From: a virus
Direction: 5' to 3' (one strand)
IMG/VR virus record: IMGVR_UViG_3300023184_000096
Coordinates: 1 to 64,000 of that record
DNA: 64,000 bases
A program made the translations under genes and the position numbers. This document shows positions 17,232 through 41,686 of this stretch, one piece after another; the first letter of the stretch is position 1, and every line of letters begins with the position of its first letter. The notes under the pieces are model-generated. The model was not told the origin of the DNA and did not search any database. It saw only the letters and a program-made list of their open reading frames with translations.

Positions 17232-17239
17232 ACGGTAAT

Positions 17240-17276: not shown

Positions 17277-17299
17277 TATTGCATACACAAGGAGCCCGA

Positions 17300-22872: not shown

Positions 22873-23106
22873 ATGATACTGTTCAAAGAAATTGCCATGG
22901 GCGATGTCGAGGATCCAGAGCTCTACGCGGCCTTCCCAATCAATGAGTGGGAAAAAAGCGAAGTAGGTCAATGGGTCATGGCCCATGCTGTTGAGACTCC
23001 TAGTTTTCGTATTGTAATTAACCATCAAAGTTATGGTTACATGGTACAGATCTACGGCAAGCTTCGCGAGCAGGACGAAATAATTTATAGGTTAAAATAC
23101 ACATGA
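22873..23106 (+). CDS. Small conserved phage protein, 77 residues
   Basis: Starts MILFKEIAMGDVEDPELYAA, then INEWEKSEVGQWVMAHAVET and QIYGKLREQDEIIYRLK. The GDVEDPELYAA and WVMAHA words are familiar from small marine T4-like phage proteins without known function. No Shine-Dalgarno sequence; TATAAT (22861-22866) ends 6 bases before the ATG but has no clear -35. Ends in an ATGA overlap. Confidence 0.7.
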   Translation: MILFKEIAMGDVEDPELYAAFPINEWEKSEVGQWVMAHAVETPSFRIVINHQSYGYMVQIYGKLREQDEIIYRLKYT

Positions 23107-24080
23107 ACATTTTAGTAACAGGTGGGTGTGGTCTTATTGGACACAATGTTGTTAGTCAGCTGGAGCAACTGGGACACACGGTTGCTGTAACAGATACCAA
23201 AACAAACTACGGTATCATTCCGCAAGAGGAAATTGATTACCTCATGAGCGAACGTCTTAAAAAGATCACGTCACCGGTGTACGGTGCAGACATTGCCAGT
23301 GACTCAATGGATTACTTGTGCAAGAAGCACAGCATAGAAACTATTGTACATCTGGCCAGCTTGCCCAGACAAAAAGTTGTTAATGCAAATCCCATGTTGG
23401 GTGCAAGAACAATGATGGAAGGCCTACTTAATCTACTGGAAACTGCACGTACAAACAATGTTAAAAAGTTTGTGTACGTCAGTAGTTCAATGGTATACGG
23501 TGACTTTGATAATAATGTGACCGAAGATGCGCTGTGCAAGCCAATTGGGCAGTATGGCATTATGAAACTTGCAGGAGAAGACCTTGTCAAAGATTATACC
23601 CGTCGTGGTTGTTTTGATCACACTATTATCCGTCCCAGTGCTGTTTATGGGCCACTTGATGTTGAAGACCGAGTCGTTGCCAAATTCATGCTCACAGCAA
23701 TGCGCGGCGGAGTGCTCCGAGTTAATGGAGCAAACGAAACCCTAGACTTTACCTACAGCGAAGATGCGGCCCGAGGCATTGTTGCTGCCACACTGTGTGA
23801 TGCCGCAAACAACAAAACCTATAACATCACAAAAAGTCACTCTGTCAGCTTGTTAGAAGCCGCACAAAAGATCATGAATATTGCGTGTAACGGTACTATC
23901 GAAGTGCGTGACAAAGATGCAGACTTCCCGAGTCGTGGCGCTCTAAATATTGATGCGGCTCGAGAAGACTTTGGATTTGATCCGCAAGTGGATGTGCAAG
24001 AAGGATTCCACAAATACTATGAATGGTTAAAACACAGCCCATACTGGCAGAAGAAACTAAATGAAGATTCCATTCACTAA
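23103..24080 (+). CDS. NAD-dependent sugar epimerase/dehydratase
   Basis: A 325-residue extended short-chain dehydrogenase. It starts MNILVTGGCGLIGHNVV (GxxGxxG), has VYVSSSMVYGD with the catalytic serine region, Tyr-x3-Lys in QYGIMKLAGED, and RPSAVYGP plus TLDFTYSEDAARGI typical of UDP-glucose 4-epimerase-like enzymes. It would act on a nucleotide sugar, as an epimerase or 4,6-dehydratase; I cannot separate these. It overlaps the aminotransferase gene by 20 bases, forming a sugar-modification trio with the next two genes. Confidence 0.85.
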   Translation: MNILVTGGCGLIGHNVVSQLEQLGHTVAVTDTKTNYGIIPQEEIDYLMSERLKKITSPVYGADIASDSMDYLCKKHSIETIVHLASLPRQKVVNANPMLGARTMMEGLLNLLETARTNNVKKFVYVSSSMVYGDFDNNVTEDALCKPIGQYGIMKLAGEDLVKDYTRRGCFDHTIIRPSAVYGPLDVEDRVVAKFMLTAMRGGVLRVNGANETLDFTYSEDAARGIVAATLCDAANNKTYNITKSHSVSLLEAAQKIMNIACNGTIEVRDKDADFPSRGALNIDAAREDFGFDPQVDVQEGFHKYYEWLKHSPYWQKKLNEDSIH

Positions 24081-25146
24081 TCTATATCAGCAGTACCTGG
24101 ACTGCAAACCAGAAATTGATTCGGCCATTGCAAAGGTCATTGCTTCCAGCAGTTTCATTACAGGACCAGACGTCACAAAGTTTGAATCAGAATTTGCACA
24201 ATACGTAGGCGCCGAGGATTGTGCCAGCACAGGTTCGGGTACCACAGCATTGCTGTGTGCCATGCGAGCCTTAGGCATTGGGGAAGGTGACGAAGTGCTG
24301 ACTACCCCACATACGTTTGTGGCCACAACAGAAGCCATTGTTAGTGTGGGTGCCACGCCGGTGTTTGTGGACATTGATCCAGACACACATCTAATAGATC
24401 TAGATCTATTGGAACAGGCAATCACTCCTTATACTTGTGCTATCTTGTTTGTGGATATCTACGGACAATGTCCAGACATGCAACGACTGAATGCTATCCG
24501 TGAAAAATACGACTTGTACATTGTGGAAGATGCCGCACATAGCCTAGGCAATACATTCATGGGTCGTACTGTCGGCAGCTTTGCCGACATCACTTGTTTC
24601 AGTTTCAATCCTGTGAAAAACTTGGGTGCCATGGGCGATGCAGGTTGTGCAGTAGGACAGAAGATACTGATGGATCAGGTACGTATGTATCGCGATCACG
24701 GACGTACAGGGCGCTACGACATCGTGGAGATAGGATATAATGCACGTATCGACAACATGCAAAGCAATATCGTACTGGCCAAACTGCCTAAACTATACAC
24801 CTGGTTAGAACGCAAGCGTACAATCTGTGCCTACTACAATCATCATCTCAAAGATGTGGTCAAGACTGTTAAAAGAGTGCAAGGTAACAGTCACAGTTAC
24901 TATGTGTACGTTATACAAACGCCACAGCGTGACGGTCTCCGCAAGTTCTTGGAAGCCAAAGGTATTGGTACCAACATACACTATGCTACCACCACACACC
25001 AACAACCTGCATACCTGCCTTGGTATCGTCCTTGCCCGGTAGCAGAACGTACAGTAAACGAAATCCTCAGCTTGCCGTGTTGGCCAAGCATGACCGACGA
25101 AGAAGTCAACTATGTGGTCGACTGTGTCAAGGAGTTCTTTCAATGA
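24061..25146 (+). CDS. DegT/DnrJ/EryC1/StrS-family sugar aminotransferase
   Basis: A 361-residue PLP enzyme. Family marks: IPFTNLYQQYLDCKPEIDSA at the start, GSGTTALLCAMRALGIGEGDEV, the PLP-stacking TPHTFVAT region, VEDAAHSLG with the Asp that binds pyridine nitrogen, and FSFNPVKNLGAMGDAG with the Schiff-base lysine near residue 188. These enzymes transfer an amino group from glutamate to a keto sugar nucleotide. The neighbouring epimerase/dehydratase and oxidoreductase could supply the keto sugar. Ends in an ATGA overlap. Confidence 0.9.
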   Translation: MKIPFTNLYQQYLDCKPEIDSAIAKVIASSSFITGPDVTKFESEFAQYVGAEDCASTGSGTTALLCAMRALGIGEGDEVLTTPHTFVATTEAIVSVGATPVFVDIDPDTHLIDLDLLEQAITPYTCAILFVDIYGQCPDMQRLNAIREKYDLYIVEDAAHSLGNTFMGRTVGSFADITCFSFNPVKNLGAMGDAGCAVGQKILMDQVRMYRDHGRTGRYDIVEIGYNARIDNMQSNIVLAKLPKLYTWLERKRTICAYYNHHLKDVVKTVKRVQGNSHSYYVYVIQTPQRDGLRKFLEAKGIGTNIHYATTTHQQPAYLPWYRPCPVAERTVNEILSLPCWPSMTDEEVNYVVDCVKEFFQ

Positions 25147-26033
25147 ACATGTGGCTGGTTGGTGCAGGCTACTGGGGTAGTAAACTGCTATCTGGGTTAG
25201 AAAAGCTAGGCGTAAATGGCCAAGTGATTGATATCAAAAACGGACAGACCATTGATGATATCAACGACCAAGGCCCTGTGATGCTGGCCACACCCTTGTG
25301 GGAACACTTTGGTCAGACCATGGAACTGCTGAGTCGTGGACACGATGTGTATGTAGAAAAGCCAGCGGCAGAATCCTGTGTTGAGGTCAGCAAGATGTCA
25401 GCAATGCTGAGAGAAGACCAACTGCTCATGGTAGGACATATCTTTATACATCATCCGCAGTTGGCTGAAATTAAAAATCTTATTGCTTCAGATAAAATAG
25501 GAAAGTTAGAACATGTTACTAGCCGACGACTCAATTGGGGCATTTACCAAACACGCACCACACCTGTGCTAAGCCTTGCCGCACATGATATTAGTATTAT
25601 CCTAGACGTGTGCGGCAACGAAGCCAGCATCTACGATGCCCACGGTTATTGTCACAGCGAGAATACACAATTTGATCGTGTGGTATTCCGCGGCGCCGCT
25701 GGCGGAATTACGTTTGATATTGATGTAAGCTGGACATGGCCTGTACGCACACGTGAAACAATTTTTCATGGCACTAAAGGACAAATTGTTTGGGACCAGG
25801 ATGCTAATACTGTGACTTTGTTTGGCAATCATATTGCAAACAATCGTGCTGTTGCTGATCCTAGTCCTGTTGTTAGCACATACCACTGGGACCTAACGCC
25901 ACTGGAGTTTGAATTAAAGCACTGGGTACACTGTGTCAACACACGCACTAGGCCACTGACAGGCGTGAGTAGTGCTTATCATGTGGCACGAGTTATTGAT
26001 CAGGTTCATAACGAGATTGGAAGAAGGCCCTGA
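25143..26033 (+). CDS. Gfo/Idh/MocA-family oxidoreductase
   Basis: ATG at 25143 in an ATGA overlap; 296 residues. N-terminal NAD(P) loop GAGYWGSKLL, the family EKP motif in DVYVEKPAAES, and the conserved histidine segment LSLAAHDISIILDV. Members oxidise or reduce sugars, inositols or nucleotide sugars at C3 or similar positions. In a trio with the epimerase and aminotransferase it most likely helps make a keto or amino sugar nucleotide. The last 41 bases overlap the convergent gene on the other strand, and no terminator is visible between them. Confidence 0.85.
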   Translation: MNMWLVGAGYWGSKLLSGLEKLGVNGQVIDIKNGQTIDDINDQGPVMLATPLWEHFGQTMELLSRGHDVYVEKPAAESCVEVSKMSAMLREDQLLMVGHIFIHHPQLAEIKNLIASDKIGKLEHVTSRRLNWGIYQTRTTPVLSLAAHDISIILDVCGNEASIYDAHGYCHSENTQFDRVVFRGAAGGITFDIDVSWTWPVRTRETIFHGTKGQIVWDQDANTVTLFGNHIANNRAVADPSPVVSTYHWDLTPLEFELKHWVHCVNTRTRPLTGVSSAYHVARVIDQVHNEIGRRP

Positions 26034-27321
26034 GCCATTCCCAACGAAACGCTTTTTTGAGCTCATGGTTGTTTGAAATATTGTCATCAAAGAATTGTGC
26101 GCCATCGTTTGCACCTCTTAGAACCCACTCAGCATTTGCTCCTGTTGCGTGGGTTCGCCATACATGTATGCGATAGTCTGTTTCTACACTAGGTTCATCC
26201 AGTTGCCACTGGCACAGTTTACTCACTTCACGGAATGCTGTGCGCCACGCATGGTAAGGAGTAATAGCAAACTCTCCGTACACACTGGTCAGTGGAATTG
26301 ATTCTGTAGCAAAGCTCATGGTAAAGTCCATACCGCCAATCTGTTCCCAAGGCTTGGAATTCAATATTGATTCCTTATGGTACATGATGATGCCCATGTG
26401 TCCATAACACAACCCATTGCTGGCATTTAGTGCGTTGAAGATATATTGCTTGGGTGCTTGCCAACGATCAGGTACAAAAGAGAAGTCCCAGCCTTCGTGT
26501 AGTCTTGTTTTGGCAAAGGTAGCATAAAACCAAGGTGTGGTACTTGTTGCGGCTGCGGCCTTTAAGGCATGTTCCATTCCTTCTACACCATGCACTCTTT
26601 GAGCTGTAGGAAAACGGGCAACAAGTCTAGCCCAATTTTCATCTGCTTGTGGTTCATCGTAACTGATGAACACAATGTCTTGCTGTATACTTTGTACAGA
26701 GTTTACACGTACTAGATGCAGGTAATCATAAACCTGTGTCTTGAGGTAGTTTTGTGCTACTTTAGGCACAAGGCTGACACTATTATCCGCAGAAAAACTA
26801 ATCAGCTGGTGGTGTTTTTCTCCCCACAGGCTAGGTTCAGTGTCTATGTGTGCTGTATATGTATTGCAGTTGAATAATTGATATTCGGATTGGAATTCCG
26901 TTGCCATAATTGTAGTGACCAAATCATTGTTGCCCACATGTACTTCGGGCCAGGCAACTCTTTTCGGGCCAGGGGAGTGATAGTTGACATCTTCGAACCA
27001 TTCTAATAGTTCTGGCACCTGACGCTTGTATTCAGCAACAGGCACCAGCAGTATGTCTCCAAACTTTTGATCACCTGCGGCCCAACAATGTATTTGAGCA
27101 GCCTCCCATGGCACTGGATCCCAATCAAATTCAAAGCCTACACAGTCTGAACAACTCATCACAATCCACACATGGCTTGTGCGAGAACGTTCTACACAAC
27201 GCATGACAGTTGCCAGGACGCTGTGATAGTAGCGTGTGACTTGTGCATGTGGGTAACGCTGTTTGATTGACAGAATGTTTTGAGTGTGACTGCCTAGATC
27301 AACAACAAACATGTCATGCAT
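25993..27321 (-). CDS. Two-domain glycosyltransferase-like protein
   Basis: The ATG at 27321 (MHDMFVVDLGSHTQN) overlaps the upstream gene by 8 bases; 442 residues. The first half contains HVWIVMSCSDC and a WEAAQIHCWAAGDQKFGDI segment that resembles a domain I recall in marine T4-like phage proteins. The second half is clearly homologous to the protein at 34821-35735: DIVFISYDEPQADENWARL, AQRVHGVEGMEHALKAAAAT, YHAWRTAFREVSKLC. Where that relative has a metal-binding DGDN, this one has ATFAKTRL, so the second domain has probably lost the catalytic DxD. It is the last gene of the twelve-gene operon. Confidence 0.6.
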   Translation of the reverse strand: MHDMFVVDLGSHTQNILSIKQRYPHAQVTRYYHSVLATVMRCVERSRTSHVWIVMSCSDCVGFEFDWDPVPWEAAQIHCWAAGDQKFGDILLVPVAEYKRQVPELLEWFEDVNYHSPGPKRVAWPEVHVGNNDLVTTIMATEFQSEYQLFNCNTYTAHIDTEPSLWGEKHHQLISFSADNSVSLVPKVAQNYLKTQVYDYLHLVRVNSVQSIQQDIVFISYDEPQADENWARLVARFPTAQRVHGVEGMEHALKAAAATSTTPWFYATFAKTRLHEGWDFSFVPDRWQAPKQYIFNALNASNGLCYGHMGIIMYHKESILNSKPWEQIGGMDFTMSFATESIPLTSVYGEFAITPYHAWRTAFREVSKLCQWQLDEPSVETDYRIHVWRTHATGANAEWVLRGANDGAQFFDDNISNNHELKKAFRWEWLRAFFQSRYEPDQ

Positions 27322-28393
27322 CTTCGTTTCTCCACGTGTACTCGTATGTGCGTGTGTGCTCGCTAGTCTCAATTGAATAGATATTAAGATGCTTGGTCAA
27401 CAAGTCCCATACTGCATACGGGTCAGTTGTTCCAAATGCTTGCTCTACATCAACATCACCAATGTGTAAGTATCCTAGACTGTTGTTGATATCTGTGGAA
27501 TCAATATTGTTGTCAGCAAGCCATTGCTTGAACTCTGTCATCTGTTTGTCGTGCCAATCAAACACACCATCCACAATAGTCTTACCCCATTCAATATCAA
27601 ACTCGCCTGAGTAGTATTTGAGTTGTGTGATTGCTTCGCACACGGTTTCTGTTAACACAGGGGCATTTTCATCTCTAAATACTTCAAAGTAGGTTTTACC
27701 TATTTGCGCCCAGTGCATGTACACTCCACCGAGCTTGCGGTTGAATCCATTTTGTGCAAATCCCACACGGTGTTCATCTGTTAGTTCATAACGTGGTGCA
27801 TTATGGAATGTGGTGATCTGTACAGGGCGTGTCCACTCAGGCAATAGCATGTGTTTGCGTTGGCTCAGTACCAAGTTTTCTATTTCGTGGCATAGTGTGT
27901 TAAGGCGTCCCATTGCTTGACGTATGTGTGCAGGTGCCGCACGAAAGTAATTGCTAGGAGATTCAACTGTGCCTTGCAGTCTTTCAAAGTGATTGTGTAT
28001 GCGATTCATTATTTCATGCTTGGTGCTATGAAACAACATCTCCGGAAACATCTGTAGTGGTGCAACATACTCTGGTCCATAGCGTACCACATCTGGTGCG
28101 AACCAATCCTCAATACGATATTGCGGAAGATCATGCTGTTGCCAGTTGTAAGTGTTGAGCGTATAGATGGCTCGATTCATCTGCTCGCACAAGTATTCTA
28201 TGTCGCGAGGTGTGTCTGGAAAGCCCAAAAAGCAGTAGCTCTTGTTAAGGCGTAGTCCACGTTTGAGTATGTCGTTTAGTCCTGCTAGCCAATCCTTTGC
28301 AAGTGCATGATCTGCGGCTGTGATTGTGTATACCAGATCATTGTTTGTGTCTGGATCTCTTAGCGTTACTCTGATTTGATTTGTTTCCACCAT
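27314..28393 (-). CDS. Conserved phage protein of unknown function, 359 residues
   Basis: A soluble protein with KSYCFLGFPDTPRDIEYLCE, then ERLQGTVESPSNYFRAAPAH, LNTLCHEIENLVLSQRK, PVQITTFHNAPRYELTDEHR and GGVYMHWAQIGKTYFEVFRD. These words look strongly conserved and I recall similar ones from marine T4-like phages; no function is known to me and no cofactor motif is evident. It sits between the glycosyltransferase-like gene and the first radical-SAM gene, overlapping both (8 and 28 bases), so it probably works in the same process. Confidence 0.7.
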   Translation of the reverse strand: MVETNQIRVTLRDPDTNNDLVYTITAADHALAKDWLAGLNDILKRGLRLNKSYCFLGFPDTPRDIEYLCEQMNRAIYTLNTYNWQQHDLPQYRIEDWFAPDVVRYGPEYVAPLQMFPEMLFHSTKHEIMNRIHNHFERLQGTVESPSNYFRAAPAHIRQAMGRLNTLCHEIENLVLSQRKHMLLPEWTRPVQITTFHNAPRYELTDEHRVGFAQNGFNRKLGGVYMHWAQIGKTYFEVFRDENAPVLTETVCEAITQLKYYSGEFDIEWGKTIVDGVFDWHDKQMTEFKQWLADNNIDSTDINNSLGYLHIGDVDVEQAFGTTDPYAVWDLLTKHLNIYSIETSEHTRTYEYTWRNEDA

Positions 28394-29679
28394 GCTAATA
28401 CTTCTGGCCTTTGTGCTAATATGTGTTCTAGTGTGTATGTATCTCTGCGGTATGCTTCCAGATTGGAAACTGTATACTTGGCTTTGCGTTGACCTGCAAG
28501 GTATGTGTCAGGCCAGTGTTCTTCAAATGTAGACTGTGTACGTAGTTGATCGAACAAGTCTGCCACATAGTGTGCATCTGTTCCTAGCTCTGCTTCGATG
28601 TCATTGATCCAGGCGTTTAGCAGTTCACGCGGCAGTATCTGTGGACTCATGCTAATGGCAGGATCAAACGCAAAACACAATTTGGTAAGCAAGTCTACAT
28701 CGTACTCTTTGGCCAGCTTAACAATGTTCACAACTTCTGTCAAGCCGGGTAAAGTAAGAGTAAAGTCAATTCTCATCTGCCTTTTATGTCGTTGGATTGC
28801 AAGCCCTGCTTCGAAGTTGGTTCGCCATTGACTGTAGTCAAGACCTGTTCTGATGTATTCGCCGGTTTGCGATGTTCCGTCAAGACTTGCACATATTTGA
28901 TAATCTCGGAGATTAACAAGTATATCCCTGTACAGATTACTACCCCGGTAATCAATGCGGCTAAGATTTGTATTATATCTACTATAAACATTACGTCCAT
29001 CTCCTAATTCAATGATGCGTAGCATGTACTTCCAATGCTGTTCGTACATGAGTGGCTCTCCACCTACCCAATACACTTCTTCTACCCTGTGTTCTTCTAC
29101 TGCTGTGGCAAACTCTTGTTCTACCGTGCTGTCTTGGAACGCTGTGATTTCTGCCTTGACATCCGGTTTCATCCAAAGATTATCAGGGTGCTCCCAATAG
29201 TCCTTGGTCACTGCATTCATACCTTTGAGTTCAGTTTCCCAACTGCTACTCAACTTGTCACCACACATGCGGCATTTGAAGTTGCACAGGTTACTGAAGC
29301 GGTAATCCCAGCTCACGGGCTTCATTGTTGTACTACCATCCGGTGCAGTGGACGCTTGTACTTGCGCCCACTTGTGACCAAATAGATTGGTAAAGTAATC
29401 GCGGTATACAGATGAATTTAACAGTTTGTTGTTACATACGTCACACTCCGGTATTGTTTCTCCGCTGAGCATACGCTGGCGCACGGATCGCATGTGTTCT
29501 CCGTTCCAATGATCTTCTAGCGTGATAGGTATGTATCGACCAGTGCCGGCACTGGTATCAATATACTGCATGAAGTTTTGTGCAGGTTCACGACTTGCAC
29601 AACACAGCCTACGCTCAGTTTGTGGACTTAGGTATGTGTGCGTCCACGGAGCAAGGCATAGATTATTAGGTTTTTCCAT
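28366..29679 (-). CDS. Radical-SAM protein with N-terminal Cys-rich twitch-like domain (1 of 5)
   Basis: 437 residues. The N-terminal domain has C8-LAPW, then C26-C27, then C79-x2-C82, a pattern like an auxiliary iron-sulfur (twitch/SPASM-type) site but placed before the catalytic domain. The radical-SAM cluster motif is C132-x3-C136-x2-C139 (SNLCNFKCRMCG), followed by a VGGEPL AdoMet motif near residue 205. The C-terminus is helical. Such enzymes cleave AdoMet to start radical chemistry on peptides, sugars or lipids. It shares the tail-to-head overlap of the array (14 bases with the gene above). No small precursor peptide is visible nearby. Confidence 0.8.
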   Translation of the reverse strand: MEKPNNLCLAPWTHTYLSPQTERRLCCASREPAQNFMQYIDTSAGTGRYIPITLEDHWNGEHMRSVRQRMLSGETIPECDVCNNKLLNSSVYRDYFTNLFGHKWAQVQASTAPDGSTTMKPVSWDYRFSNLCNFKCRMCGDKLSSSWETELKGMNAVTKDYWEHPDNLWMKPDVKAEITAFQDSTVEQEFATAVEEHRVEEVYWVGGEPLMYEQHWKYMLRIIELGDGRNVYSRYNTNLSRIDYRGSNLYRDILVNLRDYQICASLDGTSQTGEYIRTGLDYSQWRTNFEAGLAIQRHKRQMRIDFTLTLPGLTEVVNIVKLAKEYDVDLLTKLCFAFDPAISMSPQILPRELLNAWINDIEAELGTDAHYVADLFDQLRTQSTFEEHWPDTYLAGQRKAKYTVSNLEAYRRDTYTLEHILAQRPEVLAWWKQIKSE

Positions 29680-30859
29680 ATCCCATTGCCTCGGCTATTT
29701 CGGTGTGTGTGTCTGCAAAGTTTTCTTTACGGTTAGCATCTGTTCTTTTCATGAACTCACAGAACCCTGTGCCATCTGTGCTTGTTCCGTTTTGTATAAA
29801 GCGGATAATACCTTCAACATCGTTGTGATACTTAGGATGGAAGATTCCATCACGTAGTTTTTCAATGACTGTTTCTTTTGCACAATCTCGCATGTGCCCA
29901 ATATTCATATGAGGAGGATCGTGTAACATGTTTACGTAGGCCATGTTGAATCCTTGCGTGTCAACCCAACGGCATAGGTCTTCAAAGTAGTACACGTTCT
30001 GTACATTGATTGTCATGCAGACTTGTAGTGTAATATTTCGTGACTCACGGCGTAGTTGTTTAGCATGTTCTATGTTGGCGCAAACCTCATTCCACTTTGC
30101 ACCACTGCGTTCTATTTCAAACTTAGTACCAATGTTGTCTATGCTAAATGCAATTTCTACATTCTTGAAATGTCTCCAAATATCCACAAGCTCTGCGTCC
30201 CATGTGGTGCCATTTGTATTGTAATGTATACTGATGTCTTTGGCGCAACCTAAGTCAACTGCTTGCTGAAGTAAATTAAAGTGTTCTTTAATAAGAAAAG
30301 GTTCACCACCTGTAAATTCAAAATACTTCACCTGTGGTAACAATGTTCCTAGATCTGTCCAGAATGTGTCTGATTTGCGTGGCCATTCACCTGCTCGTAA
30401 TTGCAAGTATGCGCGAGTAGTTTTAGGATCACTGATTGTTTGATAATCCATTTCTTCTTGTGCCCACTTGCTACTTGACCATGTGCCGCATATACGACAT
30501 TTCAAATTGCAGATGTTGCCTAGTTTCAAATCAAGGAACCATAGTTGGTCAGGACTGGTATTGTACCAGTCTACTTGTGCTGTTTGATTTGCGAACTTTC
30601 GTAGGTGCCATTGTCGTTTGCTAGTACGACCAGCATCCTCTTCCGACCAACAGCGTTGACAAGTTTCAGGGCGTTCGGCATTTAAGAACTGCTGTCGTAG
30701 CTGTTGCATACTTTCACTCTTGTATGCTGTGGTCAAACCATCTGCAACTGTCAACCCGGGTATTTCCTCTGTGGCAAGACAACAAGGACGCAATGCACCC
30801 GTTGGTGTGGTCTCCATTGAGATCCAAGGTAATATACAGATCTTAGGGTGTGGGAGCAT
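29666..30859 (-). CDS. Radical-SAM protein with N-terminal Cys-rich twitch-like domain (2 of 5)
   Basis: 397 residues, the shortest of the five. N-terminal motif C8-ILPW, C26-C27 (RPCC), C67-x2-C70 (ETCQRCWSEED). Radical-SAM motif C117-x3-C121-x2-C124 (GNICNLKCRICG) and FTGGEPF. It also has a beta-strand with IHYNTNGT and FSIDNIG, as in the AdoMet barrel. It belongs to the same subfamily as 1 and 3 (CxxPW start). Overlaps the upstream gene by 17 bases. Substrate unknown. Confidence 0.8.
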   Translation of the reverse strand: MLPHPKICILPWISMETTPTGALRPCCLATEEIPGLTVADGLTTAYKSESMQQLRQQFLNAERPETCQRCWSEEDAGRTSKRQWHLRKFANQTAQVDWYNTSPDQLWFLDLKLGNICNLKCRICGTWSSSKWAQEEMDYQTISDPKTTRAYLQLRAGEWPRKSDTFWTDLGTLLPQVKYFEFTGGEPFLIKEHFNLLQQAVDLGCAKDISIHYNTNGTTWDAELVDIWRHFKNVEIAFSIDNIGTKFEIERSGAKWNEVCANIEHAKQLRRESRNITLQVCMTINVQNVYYFEDLCRWVDTQGFNMAYVNMLHDPPHMNIGHMRDCAKETVIEKLRDGIFHPKYHNDVEGIIRFIQNGTSTDGTGFCEFMKRTDANRKENFADTHTEIAEAMGYGKT

Positions 30860-32153
30860 GTTTACGTAGTGCTTCTAGTTCTGGAAATGTAGCAAAAAAA
30901 TCTTCATCTCGCAATTTATCTAGCTCTGTAGTACGACTAAAGAATGTACTAAGCCAATGGTCATCAACAGTCTGTGCATCCATGAAGCTTAACATACCTC
31001 GGTACCCACTGGTGGCACGAGTTAGTTTGTCCTGCGGTTCCAACCATTTGATATGTTCTTCAATCTTCACACGTATCTGATCTTTTACTTCTTGCGGCAG
31101 GCAATCAATGCGGAACCAATTTGGGCTTTGCAAAATGTTGATGTTAAAATCGTGTGGTTTGATCAATCCTAATTCAACCCATTCGCGATGAAAGTCTGCA
31201 ATGTGCATTGCATTGTATATGCTGACTGTTGCACTAACATAGAAATCCACTTTGGGACAAATCTCTAACATGCGTTGACGATTCTTGACTGTTTCTTCCC
31301 AGTCTTGTCCTTTGCGAATATACTCGCCGCGGGCGCCGCTTGCGTCTAGACTAGCACCAACACTTACCACATCAAATTTCTTCCACAGTTCAAGTACGTC
31401 TTGATCTTTGTATGCCAGCTTGCTGAAGTTTGTGTTATAGATTAGTCGGACATGAAACATTTCACGCTTGACTAATTCGTTGAGCAAACGATAGTGTTCT
31501 TCCATGATAAGTGGTTCACCACCAGCAAAGTAAATTTGGTCCAGATGCGGAATATGCTCTTGCATTTGTTCCCACATGTCTTCATCTGTTTTACCAGCAA
31601 ACATAATGCGCGGATGACCACGATCGCCGTAGAGTTTGACTTCATCGTTGTACCAGTTGCTGGAAAAAATACTTCCACAACTGCGACAACGGAAGTTACA
31701 CACGTTGGAGAAACGAATATCGTAGTAGCGAAGTTTGAAATCTTCTACTGTGCCATCTTCTAATGTGTCGTCTACCAGTGCAATATGTTGTCCAAAGTTT
31801 TGACTAGTGCTGTGGCGCATACTAACAAATCCTGCTTTTTCTTGTTCGTAACACCGACCACACTCTTTGCTGGGTTTGCGATTAAGCATGTTCACACGCA
31901 TGTCTCGCATGCCTTGGCTGTTCCAAACTTGTTTCATTGACTGTTCTTTAAGGTTACCAATGGGCATGTTGTATTCGCCCATACAGCAAGGATATGCACG
32001 ACCATCTGGAAAGGCGTGCATGTGGATCCAGGGTATCATGCAAAAGTGTGGGTCTGTGGTCAACAGATCTTGATGCCGTTCTGGCATGGCATGTAAATTA
32101 GCATGGATAGGAATCCTGCTGTTGTAAGTGTAGTCTTTAGGGTATTTGCTCAT
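30843..32153 (-). CDS. Radical-SAM protein with N-terminal Cys-rich twitch-like domain (3 of 5)
   Basis: 436 residues with a 36-residue extra N-terminal extension. Motifs: C38-MIPW, C56-C57 (AYPCC), C98-x2-C101 (KECGRCYEQE), radical-SAM C152-x3-C156-x2-C159 (SNVCNFRCRSCG), FAGGEPL. A segment after the PCC motif, NLKEQSMKQVWNSQGMRDMR, is typical of SPASM-type domains. Conserved spacing with 1 and 2 points to one subfamily. Overlaps the upstream gene by 17 bases. Confidence 0.8.
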   Translation of the reverse strand: MSKYPKDYTYNSRIPIHANLHAMPERHQDLLTTDPHFCMIPWIHMHAFPDGRAYPCCMGEYNMPIGNLKEQSMKQVWNSQGMRDMRVNMLNRKPSKECGRCYEQEKAGFVSMRHSTSQNFGQHIALVDDTLEDGTVEDFKLRYYDIRFSNVCNFRCRSCGSIFSSNWYNDEVKLYGDRGHPRIMFAGKTDEDMWEQMQEHIPHLDQIYFAGGEPLIMEEHYRLLNELVKREMFHVRLIYNTNFSKLAYKDQDVLELWKKFDVVSVGASLDASGARGEYIRKGQDWEETVKNRQRMLEICPKVDFYVSATVSIYNAMHIADFHREWVELGLIKPHDFNINILQSPNWFRIDCLPQEVKDQIRVKIEEHIKWLEPQDKLTRATSGYRGMLSFMDAQTVDDHWLSTFFSRTTELDKLRDEDFFATFPELEALRKHAPTP

Positions 32154-33474
32154 AGAATTCCTTTAGCTCAGGGAAAGTTTCGATAAAGTTCTTTCCTCTG
32201 CGTTGATCATATTGTGTGTAAAATTGTTTGAAGTCGTTTTGCATCCTGGGCAACTCTGGTCCAGTCACTGGCTCTTGCAAGTAGTCGTGCAGGCGAGTCA
32301 GTTGATTGATTTCGTGTTCGTGCCATAGCTCGCTACCTTTGTGGTTATCCAGGAATGTTGCAATTTCCATTGCATACAGTTTGCGGTCTGCCAGCGAAAG
32401 CACGTACACGCCTTGGAAACTTGGAAAGCGTAAAATGTTAAAGCTCATGCTAGGAAAATCTCTACCATATGTTTTCTTAAGCATCATCATTGTGGTCAAG
32501 AAAACAGGCAGGCCTGGCAAACATAATGCGTTGATTGTACACATAACATGCAGTCCGCGGATGCCACTGGTCGCTAGTTTCTCTACATTTGCCAACCAGG
32601 CTTTCCAGTCTAGTCCATCACGAATGTATTCAGCGTGTAAGCCAACTGCCTCACAACTGGTGTACACGTCTAGTTCAATGCCCTGGGTAGATTCAATCAA
32701 GCGGTCCACATCAACTTCCCGACCAAGATTTGTGTTGATAGCTAGACGTGTGCTCGAACGTCCTTGGTTTTGTTTGAACCAGTCAATGAGTTGCCAGGTG
32801 TGAGCTGACATGAGTGGCTCTCCTCCGGTGATGCGGAGTTCTGTAAGGGTGCGGTGTAGGTCAGTTTCCCACCACTTGAAAAAAGCCTCCACATACGGAT
32901 TAGTTTCACCGAATTTATAAAGTTGACTACTATCATGAGCATGAGTAAAATGACCGCGCCCGTCTGATACCAGGTTAATGTAGGGTCCGTTTTTACGTAT
33001 GTCATTAACCCAAGTACTACTAAAAGCAGGGTTGCAATAAGAACAAGCAAACTGGCAAGTTCTGTCAAAAGCAATTTCCAACGTGCGAAGGTTGAAGTCG
33101 GTATAACTTGGTCTGGCGAATGCAACATTTAGGTCCTCCTCGGAATGTATCACAGTTTTATAAACACGATCGGAAATGGCATCCTTGTTCATGTCTTCGA
33201 TCTTCCAGCAGTAATCGCAGCCTGCTGGGCGTTCACCACGTTGCATCTGTTCACGCTCTTTTTTCTTTTGCGTGGTATTGTGCAATGCGGCAGGGTTAGT
33301 TTTAATTTCATCCAAGTCAATGGCATGTGGTAACGGATGATGACAACTGGTTGTTTGTCCGCTACCCAACCATATGGTAGCATTGTACCACTTGGCTCCA
33401 CAGAAGCTTGACGACTTGATGTCGATTACTCTGCGTTTGTATTCAAGGTCTGTTTCGTTATTCTGTTTCGGCAT
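32137..33474 (-). CDS. Radical-SAM protein with N-terminal Cys-rich domain, second subfamily (4 of 5)
   Basis: 445 residues. Here the first motif reads C25-GAKW and the second G-Q-T-T-S-C44-HHP, with C86-x2-C89 (AGCDYCWKIED). Radical-SAM motif C140-x3-C144-x2-C147 (DRTCQFACSYCNP) and ITGGEPL. It shares an ALHNT-x-x-K-K segment with protein 5, so 4 and 5 form a subfamily distinct from 1-3. Overlaps by 17 bases with both neighbours in the array. Confidence 0.8.
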   Translation of the reverse strand: MPKQNNETDLEYKRRVIDIKSSSFCGAKWYNATIWLGSGQTTSCHHPLPHAIDLDEIKTNPAALHNTTQKKKEREQMQRGERPAGCDYCWKIEDMNKDAISDRVYKTVIHSEEDLNVAFARPSYTDFNLRTLEIAFDRTCQFACSYCNPAFSSTWVNDIRKNGPYINLVSDGRGHFTHAHDSSQLYKFGETNPYVEAFFKWWETDLHRTLTELRITGGEPLMSAHTWQLIDWFKQNQGRSSTRLAINTNLGREVDVDRLIESTQGIELDVYTSCEAVGLHAEYIRDGLDWKAWLANVEKLATSGIRGLHVMCTINALCLPGLPVFLTTMMMLKKTYGRDFPSMSFNILRFPSFQGVYVLSLADRKLYAMEIATFLDNHKGSELWHEHEINQLTRLHDYLQEPVTGPELPRMQNDFKQFYTQYDQRRGKNFIETFPELKEFYEQIP

Positions 33475-34831
33475 GGTATTTACACAGGCTCCAAAATTCT
33501 TTCATCTCACCAAATGTTGCCAGGAAGTCAGTAGACCTACGTCTGTCATGTTCTGCAAAGAAACGATAAAAGTCTGCACGATCATGTTTCAATGATGTAG
33601 TGTCTTGTGGTTCGCGCATCCAAGCAAGGTTGCGTTCCATACGTTGTATTTCATAATCCTTGAAGCCAACAAAGCCGTCATCTTTAAGTTCGTTTTCACG
33701 CATCCACTCAATGACTTTTTCTAGCTTGTAGGCATAGCTCTCGGGCAGGATTTGTAAACTCTGCCAGCGTGGTTGTCTCAGCAGTGGTGTGTCGAACCAC
33801 ACACGTTGATATGTTCTACTGTGTCTAGCACGTAGTTCAAGAATGTAATCTAACAAGTCTTGTAAGCCTGTGATGTTTAGATTGTTCATTGTGATAATGA
33901 ATGTAAGGCTGTTCTTGTACGGAATGTCTGTGAGATAACTATCCACATTGTTCAAGCAACGTTCAAATTCTAATCCATCTCGTAGATATTCAGCTTGGTC
34001 GGCCACACCAGTATCCAGGCTCACATACTGCATGAAGTGTTCTATTTGTGTGTTACACAGACGTTTGACATAGCCAAGATACTTGTCCATTAGCTTTTGT
34101 TCTACACTAAAATTACTTGTAACGTCAAGATGTAGATCTGGCTTGGGCAATGCCAACACATAGTCAAATACTCTGTATGTGTTGTAATCCATCAGCGGCT
34201 CGCCGCCTGTCATTCGGAAGTGTTTGAGCCGGGGATAGAGACTAGGCCACCACTCCCAAAATGCGTCAACATAAGGGTTATGCTCTCTGGCAGGAATAGG
34301 ACGACGGCTACCAGTAAAATGCTCAGGGGCATTGTGAGGTACACGAGTAGGCCAAGCACCGAAGGTGTTTGTTTCTCCTGCCCATGCACTACTAAACTGT
34401 GGACTACAGTAACTACATTTAAGATTGCAAGCATGATTAAAATTAACTTCAACATAACTTGGAACGACATCTTCATCTCCTATGGCATTTTTAATTGGAT
34501 GTAAATATTCGGCGGCCCAGGGCTCACCGCTACGATAATGCCTGTCACTCAATTGCCCATTGTCCTCGGCTGACCAGCAATAGCTACATTCGTCTGGACG
34601 TTCATTCTTCAGCATGATCACACGCTGTTGTTTCTTGTATGGCGTATTGTGTAGAGCACTAGGATTGTCTGCCAACAGCTCTGTAGGAATCTTGTGCAGT
34701 GGCGGGTGATAGCATGAGTTAGTCATGCCTGTTGTTAGGTGCAGACTGACCTGTTGCCATTTGGCCAAACAGAGACTAGGACCCAGTATGTCCTTCATTT
34801 CTTCGGCGGCGTATTTGAACTCACTGGTCAC
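33458..34831 (-). CDS. Radical-SAM protein with N-terminal Cys-rich domain, second subfamily (5 of 5)
   Basis: 457 residues, the first of the array in transcription order. Motifs: C21-LAKW, SC40-YHP, C82-x2-C85 (DECSYCWSAED), radical-SAM C135-x3-C139-x2-C142 (NHACNLKCSYCSP), MTGGEPLMDY. About 100 residues follow in the AdoMet-barrel style with VTSNFSVEQK and VSLDTGVADQ. Overlaps the glycosyltransferase-like gene upstream by 11 bases. Five intact cluster motifs in five genes argue that all are active enzymes. Confidence 0.8.
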   Translation of the reverse strand: MTSEFKYAAEEMKDILGPSLCLAKWQQVSLHLTTGMTNSCYHPPLHKIPTELLADNPSALHNTPYKKQQRVIMLKNERPDECSYCWSAEDNGQLSDRHYRSGEPWAAEYLHPIKNAIGDEDVVPSYVEVNFNHACNLKCSYCSPQFSSAWAGETNTFGAWPTRVPHNAPEHFTGSRRPIPAREHNPYVDAFWEWWPSLYPRLKHFRMTGGEPLMDYNTYRVFDYVLALPKPDLHLDVTSNFSVEQKLMDKYLGYVKRLCNTQIEHFMQYVSLDTGVADQAEYLRDGLEFERCLNNVDSYLTDIPYKNSLTFIITMNNLNITGLQDLLDYILELRARHSRTYQRVWFDTPLLRQPRWQSLQILPESYAYKLEKVIEWMRENELKDDGFVGFKDYEIQRMERNLAWMREPQDTTSLKHDRADFYRFFAEHDRRRSTDFLATFGEMKEFWSLCKYHAETE

Positions 34832-35735
34832 GTGTCATTATCCCTTTGTTTTGAAAATTGCTTTTGTAATGATGTTTGAAGAACGCACTAGGCTCTGGAT
34901 CTAGATCTACAATATTCAAGTCTAGTTGTTTGCGAAGTTTTTCTCCTAGTTCATTACACTCATCAGGGCCGTGATTTTGATACATAGCCCACATGCGTTC
35001 TAGTTCATCAAAGTCTTGTACCTGTGTGTAGTCCCAGTTGCTTAACATAGTTAAACTGGTTCCACGGCGTGCGCCATAGATGGCCCAGAAGCCATTAGGA
35101 TCATCTGCGCCAACGCTTTGCCATATGGTCAAGTTATCTAGATTACGACTATGCACACGCTGTTTGAAATCACTTAGGCTAGGTCGTGCTCCGCGATCCA
35201 GACACATCTTTACACCTTCACGGAATCCTGCTCTCCATGCTTGAAAAGGAGTTTGATTGGGATATGTTGTTGAATAACAATCGTGCATGGCCCAGTAGCG
35301 TGGATCAAAGCAAAACTCTACCTGTGTTTCTGCACGACCATCTGTTGCTTCGTGTGTACGCATGGCGTTGACAAAGTCTTTGGTCCAACAACTTAATCCA
35401 CCATTGCCATACATCAGTCCATTAACCACATTACGTGCTCGCCAGCGAAATACACAATCACGATTGCTGTCGTCCAATTCAAGTTGGAGATTAAAAAAGC
35501 CAACATCAGGAATGTTGTCACCGTCAATAAGAATAAATCTATCAGTGCTACTGGCAGACGCCGCGGCTTTGTGTGCCGCATCACTTCCTTTGATACCGTC
35601 AACTCGTTTTGCCCAAGGAACCATGTTTTTAATTTTGATCCAAAACTCATCTTTTTTAGGCTCGTCGTAGGTCAGGAACACGACATCTAAGTCAGCTATG
35701 TCTACTAGTTTTTGAGTACTGTTTGATTGTGTCAT
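34821..35735 (-). CDS. GT-A-like glycosyltransferase
   Basis: 304 residues, a single-domain homologue of the second half of the protein at 25993-27321. It starts DLDVVFLTYDEPKKDEFW, has RVDGIKGSDAAHKAAASASS and the metal-binding FILIDGDNIPD (DGD) absent from its relative. Later come GLMYGNGGLSCWTKDFV and PFQAWRAGFREGVKMC. The order strand-DGDN-acceptor region matches GT-A glycosyltransferases using a nucleotide sugar and Mn2+ or Mg2+. It is inserted upstream of the five radical-SAM genes. Acceptor unknown. Confidence 0.65.
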   Translation of the reverse strand: MTQSNSTQKLVDIADLDVVFLTYDEPKKDEFWIKIKNMVPWAKRVDGIKGSDAAHKAAASASSTDRFILIDGDNIPDVGFFNLQLELDDSNRDCVFRWRARNVVNGLMYGNGGLSCWTKDFVNAMRTHEATDGRAETQVEFCFDPRYWAMHDCYSTTYPNQTPFQAWRAGFREGVKMCLDRGARPSLSDFKQRVHSRNLDNLTIWQSVGADDPNGFWAIYGARRGTSLTMLSNWDYTQVQDFDELERMWAMYQNHGPDECNELGEKLRKQLDLNIVDLDPEPSAFFKHHYKSNFQNKGIMTRDQ

Positions 35736-36075
35736 ATTCTTCCCCTGCCTCTAATAGCAACGCCATATGGTTAGCGACAGCTTGATATTCACCTTCAGAG
35801 GTTTGATGTAATTTTACTATATGTGTCCGTGTTTTGTCAAGTTTTATTAACTTTCCACTGACTATTTTATACTGGGTGACATTACGGGCTTGGTCACTTG
35901 TTATGTCAATCCATGAGTATTCTAAATCAGGCCAGTCTGGGCCATTGGCCACAGTTACAAAACGGTCAGCATCGTGATACACTCGCCATTGGTCACGTGG
36001 GGGATGTTGTGCCAGCTGTTGCTCTATGACAGCATACTCAAGTATTGCTTGTTCAAATGGCGTTGGCATAGTCAT
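35692..36075 (-). CDS. Small unknown protein, 127 residues
   Basis: A soluble protein beginning PTPFEQAILEYAVIEQQLAQ, with WRVYHDADRFVTVANG and QYKIVSGKLIKLDKT in a beta-rich middle and a helical C-terminus. Not recognised. It lies between glycosyltransferase-like genes with overlaps of 44 and 23 bases. I saw no peptide-leader or RiPP-like pattern, so its role as a substrate is only speculation. Confidence 0.65.
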   Translation of the reverse strand: MTMPTPFEQAILEYAVIEQQLAQHPPRDQWRVYHDADRFVTVANGPDWPDLEYSWIDITSDQARNVTQYKIVSGKLIKLDKTRTHIVKLHQTSEGEYQAVANHMALLLEAGEEYDTIKQYSKTSRHS

Positions 36076-36862
36076 CTATTATCTGGTCTGTTACCCATTC
36101 TTTGTTGTGATAATGAACTGGGTATAACTGTTCATGACCATTTATGCGTATGACAGGCGGAACTAGTTCTACATTTAGATCAGCAATACTGCGTGTCTGG
36201 ATGGCCTGTTTCATATGTACAAAATTAAAAAAATCTGCAGCCGGTAGTGTTACTTTGTCTACTCCAACCAATACTGCTGCCAGTGCAAATACCATGTCAT
36301 TGCTGCCAGGGTCGTCGCATCGCACAAGTTCTGTTTGCACTGTTGACCATTGTTGATACAGTTGTTTACACTTGCCAAAGAAATGTGCGGCCAGTTGACT
36401 TTTTCGCCAGTACATGAGACCAGAGTATGTGTCTGGTAAATCGTTGGCATCAAATGTTTTTCTGTATGCACGACTAGTTGCACAGCGGCCCCGATAGTCT
36501 CTACATCCCAGGCTAAGAACAACATCACGATGTTCTAACATTCGCCACCAGTGCGAGATACTGCAAGTAAACAGCAGGTCTGATTCAACTTTGATTGTTT
36601 GTGTAAACGGACTTAGTGCAAACAACTGCCAGTCGTTGCGCTGTTTCCACTCTTGATCTTTTGCCCAATCAATTGGCAGTACTATAATATAGTCAAACAC
36701 CACACGTTGTTTGTCTGTTAGTTTATCTGCGCTTGATTGGTCTGTTACCAGCGCATAAGGTAAATCAGGATTGGTCAGTTTCAAGCTCAACCTTTGCAAA
36801 TATGCAAGACGTATATAGTCAGTGGACTCATTGTTTTGCGCCATGCAAATCACGCCTCGCAT
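36053..36862 (-). CDS. GT8-like glycosyltransferase paralogue A
   Basis: 269 residues. The opening GVICMAQNNESTDYIRLAYL and the central SPFTQTIKVESDLLFTCSIS correspond to GT8-like and related GT-A enzymes. In its neighbour (36850-37626) the same place reads SPFEQTLVIDVDYLITTQ, so here the metal-binding DxD is E-S-D. The C-terminus has GHEQLYPVHYHNKEWV. The pair looks like a duplication with divergence at the active site. Probably a nucleotide-sugar transferase, or a regulatory partner of its paralogue. Confidence 0.6.
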   Translation of the reverse strand: MRGVICMAQNNESTDYIRLAYLQRLSLKLTNPDLPYALVTDQSSADKLTDKQRVVFDYIIVLPIDWAKDQEWKQRNDWQLFALSPFTQTIKVESDLLFTCSISHWWRMLEHRDVVLSLGCRDYRGRCATSRAYRKTFDANDLPDTYSGLMYWRKSQLAAHFFGKCKQLYQQWSTVQTELVRCDDPGSNDMVFALAAVLVGVDKVTLPAADFFNFVHMKQAIQTRSIADLNVELVPPVIRINGHEQLYPVHYHNKEWVTDQIIDDYANAI

Positions 36863-37626
36863 ATAAACTTCTCCAGCTTAGTGCTTTGTAACCATTCCTT
36901 GCTCATCACATGCAGATCTGTACGTGGCAATACCAGTGCATTGTCTTGTGTTCGTACTGTGATCCAATCCTTGTTGATTTGAACATCTGTCAGTGCTTGA
37001 TCTGCTGTGACAATTCCAAACGGCATGTTTGTTGCGCTACTACGATTGTATCCACCAATGATAATTTCTGCCATGGCAAAAGCATAGTCGTTACGAAAAC
37101 GCAATTCAACAATGCCAAACAACACACGATAGTATTCCCAGTTGCGCTGTATGCGCCCTACCAGTTCAAAGAACAATCTTGTGCGTTCAGTTTTGCGAAA
37201 ATAAAAAACTGTGGCCCACACAGGAGTAAGTGCAGTAACATCCAGTGTGGGACGGAATAACATTTCGTTTTTATGACAAAGTAGCAGGTCTTGTGTGCTG
37301 TCAAATAAATTTAGTAACCGTTGGGTGGTGATCAAATAGTCAACATCAATTACCAGCGTTTGTTCAAAAGGTGACAGTTCCCAGGCCTGGTAACGATTGA
37401 AGTTGTTCCATACCACTGTTTTTTGTTGATCAACGTCAAATCGTGTGTTACGCCAGTTGTCTTGTTTTTGCCCAATCACCAAATGCACAGGTAGTCCTAG
37501 AGACTTTGATGCCAATTGTAAAGTTTTGTTAGCTATACGTTCGTAGTCCACTGTGGGACTGTTATTGGCAAAGGCCAGTATGCCTTTAGATTTTTCTGAC
37601 ACGCTGAAGTTCTTCATGTAAGCCAT
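36850..37626 (-). CDS. GT8-like glycosyltransferase paralogue B
   Basis: 258 residues. It has a first strand GILAFANNSPTVDYERIANK, the catalytic DVD in TLVIDVDYLITTQ, and GLPVHLVIGQ between them, as in GT-A enzymes of GT8 type. An ATG nine bases downstream is an alternative start. Its closest relative in the window is the next gene of the operon. Overlaps the upstream small gene by 41 bases. Confidence 0.65.
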   Translation of the reverse strand: MAYMKNFSVSEKSKGILAFANNSPTVDYERIANKTLQLASKSLGLPVHLVIGQKQDNWRNTRFDVDQQKTVVWNNFNRYQAWELSPFEQTLVIDVDYLITTQRLLNLFDSTQDLLLCHKNEMLFRPTLDVTALTPVWATVFYFRKTERTRLFFELVGRIQRNWEYYRVLFGIVELRFRNDYAFAMAEIIIGGYNRSSATNMPFGIVTADQALTDVQINKDWITVRTQDNALVLPRTDLHVMSKEWLQSTKLEKFICEA

Positions 37627-37933: not shown

Positions 37934-39022
37934 TTAAGGCGACTGAGCGATTAGTGCAATAGATCCAACTGTTGGATTAGACCATGTTTTAGTAACTGTT
38001 GCCCCTGCGCCTGACTGATCGATCAAGTCAATTGCTATCCCGGTTCGAACATCAAGATTATCTGTGTTCCAGGCAGGCAATGCACCGGTACTACCAAATC
38101 CTGATGATATTCTAAACACAATTACAATGCTTTTACCAACTGCTCCGTTATCAAGGCCGTTGCCTGTTACATCTGCGCGATAGGCATAAACCGTGATGAA
38201 ACTGTCTGAATATGCGCCACTTCCAAGTGAGTTCGATCCCAGCTGTAGTGAACTGGTTCCCAAGGTCCAATATCCTTTACCTGCACCTGTATTACTGCCC
38301 GAATCATTGCCAGCAAAACCAGTGTTGTTGTATGCAGAGATATAACATTCGCCTATACCATTGATAGTACTCACAAGAGCCGCTGATCGATCATTTGCTG
38401 GGCTACCAATGGTAGATCCAGCAAAACTTATTCTTAGTTGGCCGCCGGCGTTAAAGAACCAGCGAGCGTGATCTCCAGTGGGCCAGGATATTTTGCAACT
38501 GTACTCTCTCATGACAGTACCAGCGTAAGTTGCAGTGTTCAAGTCCACAGTTCTGGTTGCGCTAACTGATGTAGTAGCTATTCCAAAAGTTGGAACTGGG
38601 CTGTCAAACCAAACATTGGCAGAAGTCATTTTGGCTGCAACAGAAGCAAATGTTGAGATAGTTCGTCCTTGAGCCGGAGTCGGACTCATTGAAAGATTGC
38701 CGGTTGCGCCTTCCTGGTAATATCTCATGCGATTCAATGCTGAAAAGAAGCCAATCCACGACTGTGCTTCAACAAGATCGCCTGTGTTGACTGGTTGTAG
38801 TTTGCCTTTTCGATCAGACAGCACAGCCGAAACTGGGTTCTGTGGCAGTCCTGGAATTTCTAAACTTTCCATGTCCTGATTCAGACCTCGATTGGCTTTT
38901 CCTGGTCCCCATATGTAGTTGATATTGTTACCTACAACAACTCCATTGTTGCCCGTTGGATCTCCCCAAACAAAGTTGTTGTAGTCTTCGTTGTCGATCA
39001 GTGAACCAGTTAGATACGTCAT
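37934..39022 (-). CDS. Virion structural protein, 362 residues
   Basis: Beta-rich, Gly/Ser/Thr/Asn-rich protein beginning MTYLTGSLIDNEDYNNFVWG, with NRMRYYQEGATGN, WPTGDHARWFFNAGGQLRIS and a repetitive C-terminal region. Composition and position right behind the fibre genes suggest a tail or fibre-tip component. No enzymatic motif. The start is one base after the stop of the preceding fibre gene. Confidence 0.65.
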   Translation of the reverse strand: MTYLTGSLIDNEDYNNFVWGDPTGNNGVVVGNNINYIWGPGKANRGLNQDMESLEIPGLPQNPVSAVLSDRKGKLQPVNTGDLVEAQSWIGFFSALNRMRYYQEGATGNLSMSPTPAQGRTISTFASVAAKMTSANVWFDSPVPTFGIATTSVSATRTVDLNTATYAGTVMREYSCKISWPTGDHARWFFNAGGQLRISFAGSTIGSPANDRSAALVSTINGIGECYISAYNNTGFAGNDSGSNTGAGKGYWTLGTSSLQLGSNSLGSGAYSDSFITVYAYRADVTGNGLDNGAVGKSIVIVFRISSGFGSTGALPAWNTDNLDVRTGIAIDLIDQSGAGATVTKTWSNPTVGSIALIAQSP

Positions 39023-39023
39023 G

Positions 39024-41633: not shown

Positions 41634-41654
41634 TTACCTGGACTCCGATTTGTT

Positions 41655-41663
41655 GTATTTATA
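41655..41663 (-). promoter_or_regulatory. T4-type late promoter TATAAATAC
   Basis: On the minus strand the sequence reads TATAAATAC, the exact T4 late -10 consensus, 23 bases before the ATG at 41633 and inside a 53-base gap. CGGAG and CAGG follow as ribosome-binding sequences. Position and match make this the best late promoter in the window. Confidence 0.7.
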
Positions 41664-41686
41664 CATGGTTATTTTCTGGGTGTTTA

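Follow-up and report, generated by a model that had tools for sequence, protein, structure and literature searches.

A conserved cassette of five ordered radical-SAM genes beside glycosyltransferase and tail-fiber genes in uncultured T4-like phages, a candidate pathway for glycan tailoring

A T4-like environmental viral genome with 12 radical S-adenosylmethionine (radical-SAM) genes together with iron-sulfur (Fe-S) carrier genes was reported in 2017 as a case of Fe-S auxiliary metabolism (PMC5332604), and in 2020 radical-SAM gene cassettes were mentioned in the host recognition cluster of pelagimyophages, a variable island of the structural region that holds tail fibers and glycosyltransferases, GT8 among them (PMC7029224). 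Here we analyzed a stretch of 64,000 nucleotides (the window; positions 1 to 64,000 of the 71,665-base IMG/VR virus record IMGVR_UViG_3300023184_000096) in which five adjacent radical-SAM genes on the minus strand, R1 to R5, lie between the gene of a probable glycosyltransferase, GTx, and that of a protein of an undescribed family, P. Many uncultured T4-like phages harbor these five non-redundant genes of the N_Twi radical-SAM family in one order, with GTx before and P behind them, in the tail-fiber region and beside nucleotide-sugar genes. The initial annotation of this DNA knew of no described phage system with such an arrangement. Multi-radical-SAM T4-like phages and radical-SAM cassettes in this region were in fact already known, and what stands of that statement is that the five-part cassette was not found described; the literature search, outside which most subscription papers and preprints lay, returned no functional study and no account of five ordered sub-types or of P.

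The initial annotation had placed five radical-SAM genes at 28366-34831 and ascribed to each a CxxxCxxC cluster motif, a GGEP motif and an N-terminal auxiliary cysteine pattern; the five open reading frames (ORFs) lie exactly there and bear all three features. Named in order of transcription, they are R1 (33458-34831, 457 aa), R2 (32137-33474, 445 aa), R3 (30843-32153, 436 aa), R4 (29666-30859, 397 aa) and R5 (28366-29679, 437 aa). Family membership was judged by the whole-protein score against the NCBIfam model NF033640 (N_Twi_rSAM, named for an N-terminal twitch, that is, an auxiliary Fe-S domain; curated cut-off 170 bits), which matches the five proteins along their full length with 305.5, 279.0, 410.9, 342.0 and 279.1 bits, respectively, so far above the cut-off that chance or misread motifs are ruled out. 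Each protein has one CxxxCxxC motif (CNLKCSYC in R1, CQFACSYC in R2, CNFRCRSC in R3, CNLKCRIC in R4 and CNFKCRMC in R5) and one GGEP motif, and CxxxCxxC and GGE(P) are present in every ortholog counted. The N-terminal cysteines, four or five per protein, follow the pattern C-x17/18-C(C)-x40-51-C-x2-C and are invariant across the aligned orthologs; R1 (C21, C40, C82, C85) and R2 (C25, C44, C86, C89) have a single cysteine in place of the pair found in R3 (C38, C56/57, C98, C101), R4 (C8, C26/27, C67, C70) and R5 (C8, C26/27, C79, C82), whose pattern is C-x17-CC-x39/51-C-x2-C. The N-terminus of R3 additionally matches the Pfam SPASM model. Matches of the radical-SAM proteins to PDB profiles were weak (best E 2e-4) and covered the core only, with the BlsE-type cytosylglucuronate decarboxylase among them. 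R1, R2, R4 and R5 are 20-29% identical to R3, and neighboring genes from GTx through P overlap by 11-28 nt, which makes GTx-R1-R5-P probably one translationally coupled, polycistronic unit.

P (27314-28393, minus strand, 359 aa) follows R5 directly and has no match in NCBIfam, Pfam or PHROG; having no family match of its own, it was chosen as the independent anchor for a survey of related loci. A first scan with P yielded 32 viral loci, and 30 of the 32 records contained at least five N_Twi genes, with up to 15 in one record; a profile scan with P extended this to 209 stretches of viral contigs. An independent scan with GTx returned at least 596 viral stretches, with the same gene order as in the P-anchored loci. 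Counted over loci that are not all independent, since near-duplicate contigs are among them (e.g., L012/L013, L017/L018, L037/L038), each of R2, R3, R4 and R5 is present in 102 of the 103 P loci with at least 9 kb of upstream sequence, and R1 is present in 94 of 103 P-anchored loci, a count lowered by the flank limit, and in 95 of the 96 GTx loci with 9 kb downstream. The clustered neighborhoods follow a single order, namely two GT8-like genes (GT8b, GT8a), the small gene h127, GTx, R1 to R5, P, optional genes and a second GTx-related gene, GTy, after which relatives carry Gfo/Idh, DegT, epimerase and ThyA genes on the other strand. The carriers of the GTx-R1-R2-R3-R4-R5-P order are uncultured viral contigs. 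Other phages thus do carry the five genes together with these same glycosyltransferases, a test that the initial annotation had proposed, and the array is part of a stable multi-gene unit.

A tree of 133 sequences recovers each of R1 to R5 as monophyletic (Shimodaira-Hasegawa-like approximate likelihood ratio test, SH-aLRT, 100, 99, 99, 100 and 100, respectively), and the paralogs are therefore old and distinct. Recent tandem duplication as the origin of the array is ruled out by the same tree. The cluster cysteines are invariant in the groups of 24-27 sequences inspected (24/24 for R1, 25/25 for R2, 25/25 for R3, 27/27 for R5), and the ratio of nonsynonymous to synonymous substitution rates (dN/dS), computed with the two nearest relatives, comes to 0.06-0.17 in the eight of 14 comparisons with measurable dS, dS being saturated in the other six. 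These values indicate purifying selection on R1 to R5, and the earlier claim that all five are apparently active is upheld insofar as the genes are, judged by sequence, intact and selected. In-frame fusion of R3 to R4 at seven related loci suggests that the two proteins probably work one after the other or in a complex. A seeming R1-R2 fusion in L013/L042, which are one contig, was discarded as probably an assembly or frame difference; R1 and R2 are separate in the near-identical L012.

The cassette lies in the tail-fiber region of a virus that, by its gene matches, is T4-like: beyond the end of the window the same record encodes proteins that match wedge and hub families of the baseplate in PHROG. 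Upstream of the array and on its strand, one uninterrupted reading frame (45339-63869, minus) encodes a 6176-aa protein matching PHROG 10938, 'virion structural protein' (E 3e-259), and baseplate-wedge PHROGs, and is followed by ORFs for three large tail-fiber-like proteins of 362, 869 and 861 aa (37934-44272, minus), which lack family matches and were named from repeat composition and position; large repeat-rich proteins of this kind span 39024-44272. The placement of the array beside glycosyltransferase-like genes and tail fibers, likewise asserted in the initial annotation, is borne out by these genes, by the two GT8-like genes at 36053-37626 and by GTx.

GTx (34821-35735, minus, 304 aa), the first gene of the conserved unit, encodes a probable glycosyltransferase with the DxD-like motif DGDN, which is invariant in relatives of 55-78% identity; its structural model (predicted local distance difference test, pLDDT, 79) resembles GT-A glycosyltransferases and nucleotidyltransferases weakly but consistently (Z 5.6-7.5; Foldseek E no better than 0.03). 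Directly before GTx in nearly all loci examined stands h127 (35692-36075, minus), a small protein without family or PHROG match; 96 of 100 upstream ORFs examined encode fewer than 200 aa and can be aligned to one common consensus. The two GT8-like genes (36053-36862, 269 aa, with a weak match to PHROG 1903 of unknown function, and 36850-37626, 258 aa; both minus) were assigned to GT8 by reading their sequences, and their order is kept in relatives. On the far side of P, GTy (25993-27372, minus; start probably the ATG at 27321 or 27312) is related to GTx in its C-terminal half (29% identity over 230 aa, E 9e-21), which has lost the DGDN motif; it lies downstream of the cassette in most relatives.

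Three plus-strand genes, convergent to the array, follow in the window: a Gfo/Idh/MocA-type oxidoreductase (25143-26033; Pfam PF22725 and PF01408; start inferred within the longer ORF 25020-26033), a DegT/DnrJ/EryC1/StrS sugar aminotransferase (24061-25146; Pfam E 3e-107; nearest to PseC with 247 bits in NCBIfam, below the equivalog cut-off) and an NAD-dependent nucleotide-sugar epimerase/dehydratase (23103-24080; Pfam PF01370, E 1e-38; nearest NCBIfam model dTDP-glucose 4,6-dehydratase, below cut-off). Most relatives have the DegT gene, the epimerase gene or both next to the cassette. In relatives, a NodU-type carbamoyltransferase is encoded downstream of P at 64 of 70 loci, and probable SGNH enzymes, named from GDSx and GHPxxxxH motifs with no Pfam match, at 49 of 70; at one locus P is fused to an SGNH-like domain. 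The window has neither gene, so both are accessory to the cassette. Some relatives also have APS-kinase-like, cytidylyltransferase-like and PIG-L deacetylase genes. Amidinotransferase-like and fucosyltransferase-like genes in relatives gave no family matches and are impressions from reading only. All five searched records of at least 230 kb have an Fe-S carrier (PF01521), and three of the five have an IscU-type scaffold as well, implying that these phages invest in loading Fe-S enzymes; the window's own record, a 71,665-base fragment, has neither.

This context points to a phage-encoded pathway that would tailor a surface glycan in several radical steps, a reading that we hold to be somewhat better than even. 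The epimerase/dehydratase, the pyridoxal phosphate-dependent aminotransferase and the Gfo/Idh enzyme would supply an amino-deoxy nucleotide sugar. In each of R1 to R5 a reduced [4Fe-4S] cluster would split S-adenosylmethionine (AdoMet) and the second, N-terminal Fe-S cluster may bind substrate or pass electrons, the five enzymes performing different radical steps (e.g., dehydrogenation, epimerization, deoxygenation, or C-C or C-S bond formation) on the free or attached sugar. GTx and the neighboring glycosyltransferases would place the sugar, and in many relatives the carbamoyltransferase and the probable SGNH-type acyl enzymes would add further groups. The product might coat the tail fibers, where it could change and would bind receptors or act as a shield, or it might decorate the envelope of the infected host and block other phages.

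The initial annotation had left the target as a glycan, a lipid-linked sugar or a virion protein. A glycan is favored here because of the sugar context, that is, the epimerase, DegT and Gfo/Idh genes, the frequent carbamoyltransferase, the PIG-L deacetylase of some relatives and, in a Bdellovibrionales genome (L259), an R1-type gene located after genes for an ABC-2 permease and an ATPase, which we take to export polysaccharide; for the virion-protein version, no candidate substrate peptide was found at this locus. Several observations weigh against the glycan. P has no assigned function, and the cyclophilin-like barrel discussed below would suit a peptide ligand equally; GTx lacks a significant fold or family match; both GT8 assignments rest on sequence reading; and the nucleotide-sugar genes, which lie on the strand opposite the array and so are not evidently co-regulated with it, could serve the glycosyltransferases without the radical-SAM enzymes. 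Finally, in two Bdellovibrionota genomes the sub-types lie amid housekeeping genes, with no glycan cluster evident there (R1, R2 and R3 together in L194; R3, R4 and R5 together in L256, both near the phage groups in the tree).

The structural model of P (AlphaFold, pLDDT 88) gave nothing significant against the PDB by Foldseek. With VIA-align, the 23 highest-ranking rows are cyclophilins or ribosomal chains of cyclophilin-like type (Z 6.6-8.9; about 137 of 165 residues; 3.5 Å), below which come a Pictet-Spenglerase with a related domain and then unrelated chains near Z 5; comparison with an E. coli PpiB profile lent no sequence support. P may thus form a cyclophilin-like barrel into which a long helical segment is inserted. 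Nine viral proteins share its predicted fold, all uncharacterized, and one of them is from the cultured Agrobacterium phage Atu_ph07 (A0A2L0UZJ4). No bacterial homologs of P appeared in one scan that used only two peptide patterns.

Atu_ph07 itself (MF403008, 116.0-123.6 kb; L128 20998-28647) has three radical-SAM genes and a JmjC/cupin gene beside a 13-kb T4-like structural gene. One product of this region, AUZ94952, is a structural-looking protein that ends in DFCHSSCHASCHNSRSRR, a C-H-x-S repeat tail, and resembles a modification target. Another, AUZ94948 (L128 22996-23898, 300 aa), lies between the radical-SAM genes; its identity with A0A2L0UZJ4 was guessed from its length and its place beside these genes, and the profile comparison gave no confirmation.

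These features bear on the main alternative, in which R1 to R5 modify a virion protein, likeliest a tail fiber or baseplate protein. P would then be a helper that binds peptides or acts like a prolyl isomerase, and the glycosyltransferases would do another job of this variable region. Peptides are the substrates of most well-studied SPASM/twitch relatives, the model of P resembles cyclophilins, and the cassette lies directly downstream of tail-fiber genes on the same strand; in Atu_ph07, moreover, the three radical-SAM genes flank the C-H-x-S-tailed protein, making virion-protein targeting plausible elsewhere. Within the clade of the present cassette, however, motif and tail searches, which an unusual precursor could escape, found no precursor-like or Cys/Ser-tailed protein nearby. 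The C-H-x-S-tailed virion protein suggested by Atu_ph07 was sought in particular: CHxS pattern matches in this record and 18 relative records were few and, judged as DNA patterns, none resembled such a tail, two overlapping matches in relatives reading as Ala/Thr repeats in another frame. The sole match in the window is not on the strand that encodes the giant structural gene but on the other one, and 6 of 100 shuffles also gave a match. Considered as a precursor, h127 was rejected for want of a conserved core-like tail. The substrate searches thus weaken the case for a virion protein, as do the retention of R1 to R5 without P in marine contigs and the strong co-occurrence of the cassette with sugar-modifying genes, and we regard this alternative as doubtful.

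In a more far-reaching form of glycan tailoring, five radical reactions would run one after another, P serving them as a dedicated partner, and would give the tail fibers a glycan or glycan-protein linkage without chemical precedent, hence a new class of virion modification; this appears to us rather unlikely. If it were true, abundant uncultured T4-like phages would wear a coat made by radical chemistry that no known phage decoration resembles.

That the array is instead an auxiliary metabolic island for host physiology, such as cofactor or lipid chemistry during infection, its proximity to tail fibers marking only an insertion-prone region, seems distinctly improbable. Multi-radical-SAM T4-like genomes have been interpreted as Fe-S metabolism (PMC5332604), some relatives have five to fifteen family members, scattered extras included, and bacterial R3-like homologs occur singly, in Bacteroidota and elsewhere. 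An insertion-prone region, however, would not hold five distinct genes together with GTx and P in one order across such divergence, and the extra copies vary while R1 to R5 are constant. A gene-dosage array, whose members would be mobile or redundant copies of little significance as a set, might be brought to mind by tandem paralogs in a hypervariable region; it is very unlikely and already contradicted by the five old groups of paralogs 20-29% identical to R3, by purifying selection and by the retained cluster cysteines. Least credible of all is a viperin-like synthesis of chain-terminating nucleotides for inter-phage warfare or counter-defense: the weak viperin/pVip matches in the radical-SAM core reach at best 36 bits against the NF038283 cut-off of 180 (41 bits in PADLOC), so far below it that this identity was rejected, and the enzymes have an N-terminal twitch domain and N_Twi_rSAM scores of 279-411 bits.

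Elsewhere in the window, the plus strand carries a sixth radical-SAM gene outside the array, QueE-like (4350-5243, PHROG 2076), and PTPS/QueD-like genes at 1986-2492 and, more weakly, 2533-3090, so that 1986-5240 probably encodes a 7-deazaguanine pathway. An AAA ATPase (PHROG 1297) beside a DUF2201 metallopeptidase/VWA-like protein (called HNH endonuclease in PHROG 1314) forms a MoxR/VWA-like pair at 16110-18598, also on the plus strand. Among bacteria, Bdellovibrionota and one deltaproteobacterium (L194, L256, L259, L245, L262) have several of the phage sub-types, sometimes clustered among housekeeping genes, which suggests exchange with phages.

The presence of five non-redundant, ordered radical-SAM enzymes across numerous viral genomes implies that phages carry out a lengthy radical biosynthesis while infecting, for which the larger genomes bring Fe-S assembly genes along with the radical-SAM set. 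If the product of the proposed glycan pathway is displayed on tail fibers or on the host surface, it would bear on host recognition, on hiding from hosts and on the exclusion of rivals. The Bdellovibrionota, also attackers of bacteria, share sub-types with the phages and offer a second place to seek the substrate, and the divergent cluster of Vibrio phage K566 provides a cultured, tractable laboratory model.

Compared with described systems, the larger records of our survey resemble the genome of PMC5332604 by gene content, both having many radical-SAM genes and A-type carrier or IscU genes; arrangement and target were not analyzed for that genome. The cassette lies in a T4-like phage, next to tail fibers and glycosyltransferases, and a large structural gene linked to the baseplate precedes it; this placement agrees with the host recognition cluster described for pelagimyophages (PMC7029224). 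Of the boundary genes of that cluster, the giant gene here matches PHROG 10938, which is not named VrlC, and gp14 was not identified in the window of this 71.7-kb fragment record. PMC7029224 mentions its cassettes only briefly and gives neither their number nor their sub-types, order or function. Marine contigs, found here in bins labeled Pelagibacter and Rickettsiales and resembling phage DNA, differ from the present cassette in lacking P and in having R4 and R5 swapped (GTx-R1-R2-R3-R5-R4). Phage-like contigs with the cassette and without P occur in metagenome-assembled genomes of Flavobacterium, Pelagibacter and Rickettsiales (L190, L191, L192), possibly through binning contamination.

Among cultured phages, none in the collection searched has the five-gene cassette, and GTx, P and R1 gave no match in the copy of INPHARED searched; relatives of R3 occur in four Vibrio phages at 21-22% identity. 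K566, one of these four, and K567 (OZ196521, OZ196593), both large Vibrio phages, have in common with the present locus five N_Twi-type genes beside GT8 and GT4-like genes (L123 11989-18725 in K566), whereas identity to R3 is only about 21%, the order and number of genes differ, and a profile search detected no P. At the level of the enzyme family, NF033640 describes a subfamily without an assigned reaction, and its definition does not include five ordered orthologous sub-types accompanied by GTx and P, as are present here. Lastly, R1 to R5 share the radical-SAM core and a predicted auxiliary Fe-S cluster with the SPASM/twitch maturases of ribosomally synthesized and post-translationally modified peptides and with AdoMet-dependent sugar enzymes of the BtrN and BlsE types, and are set apart from both by the N-terminal position of their auxiliary domain.

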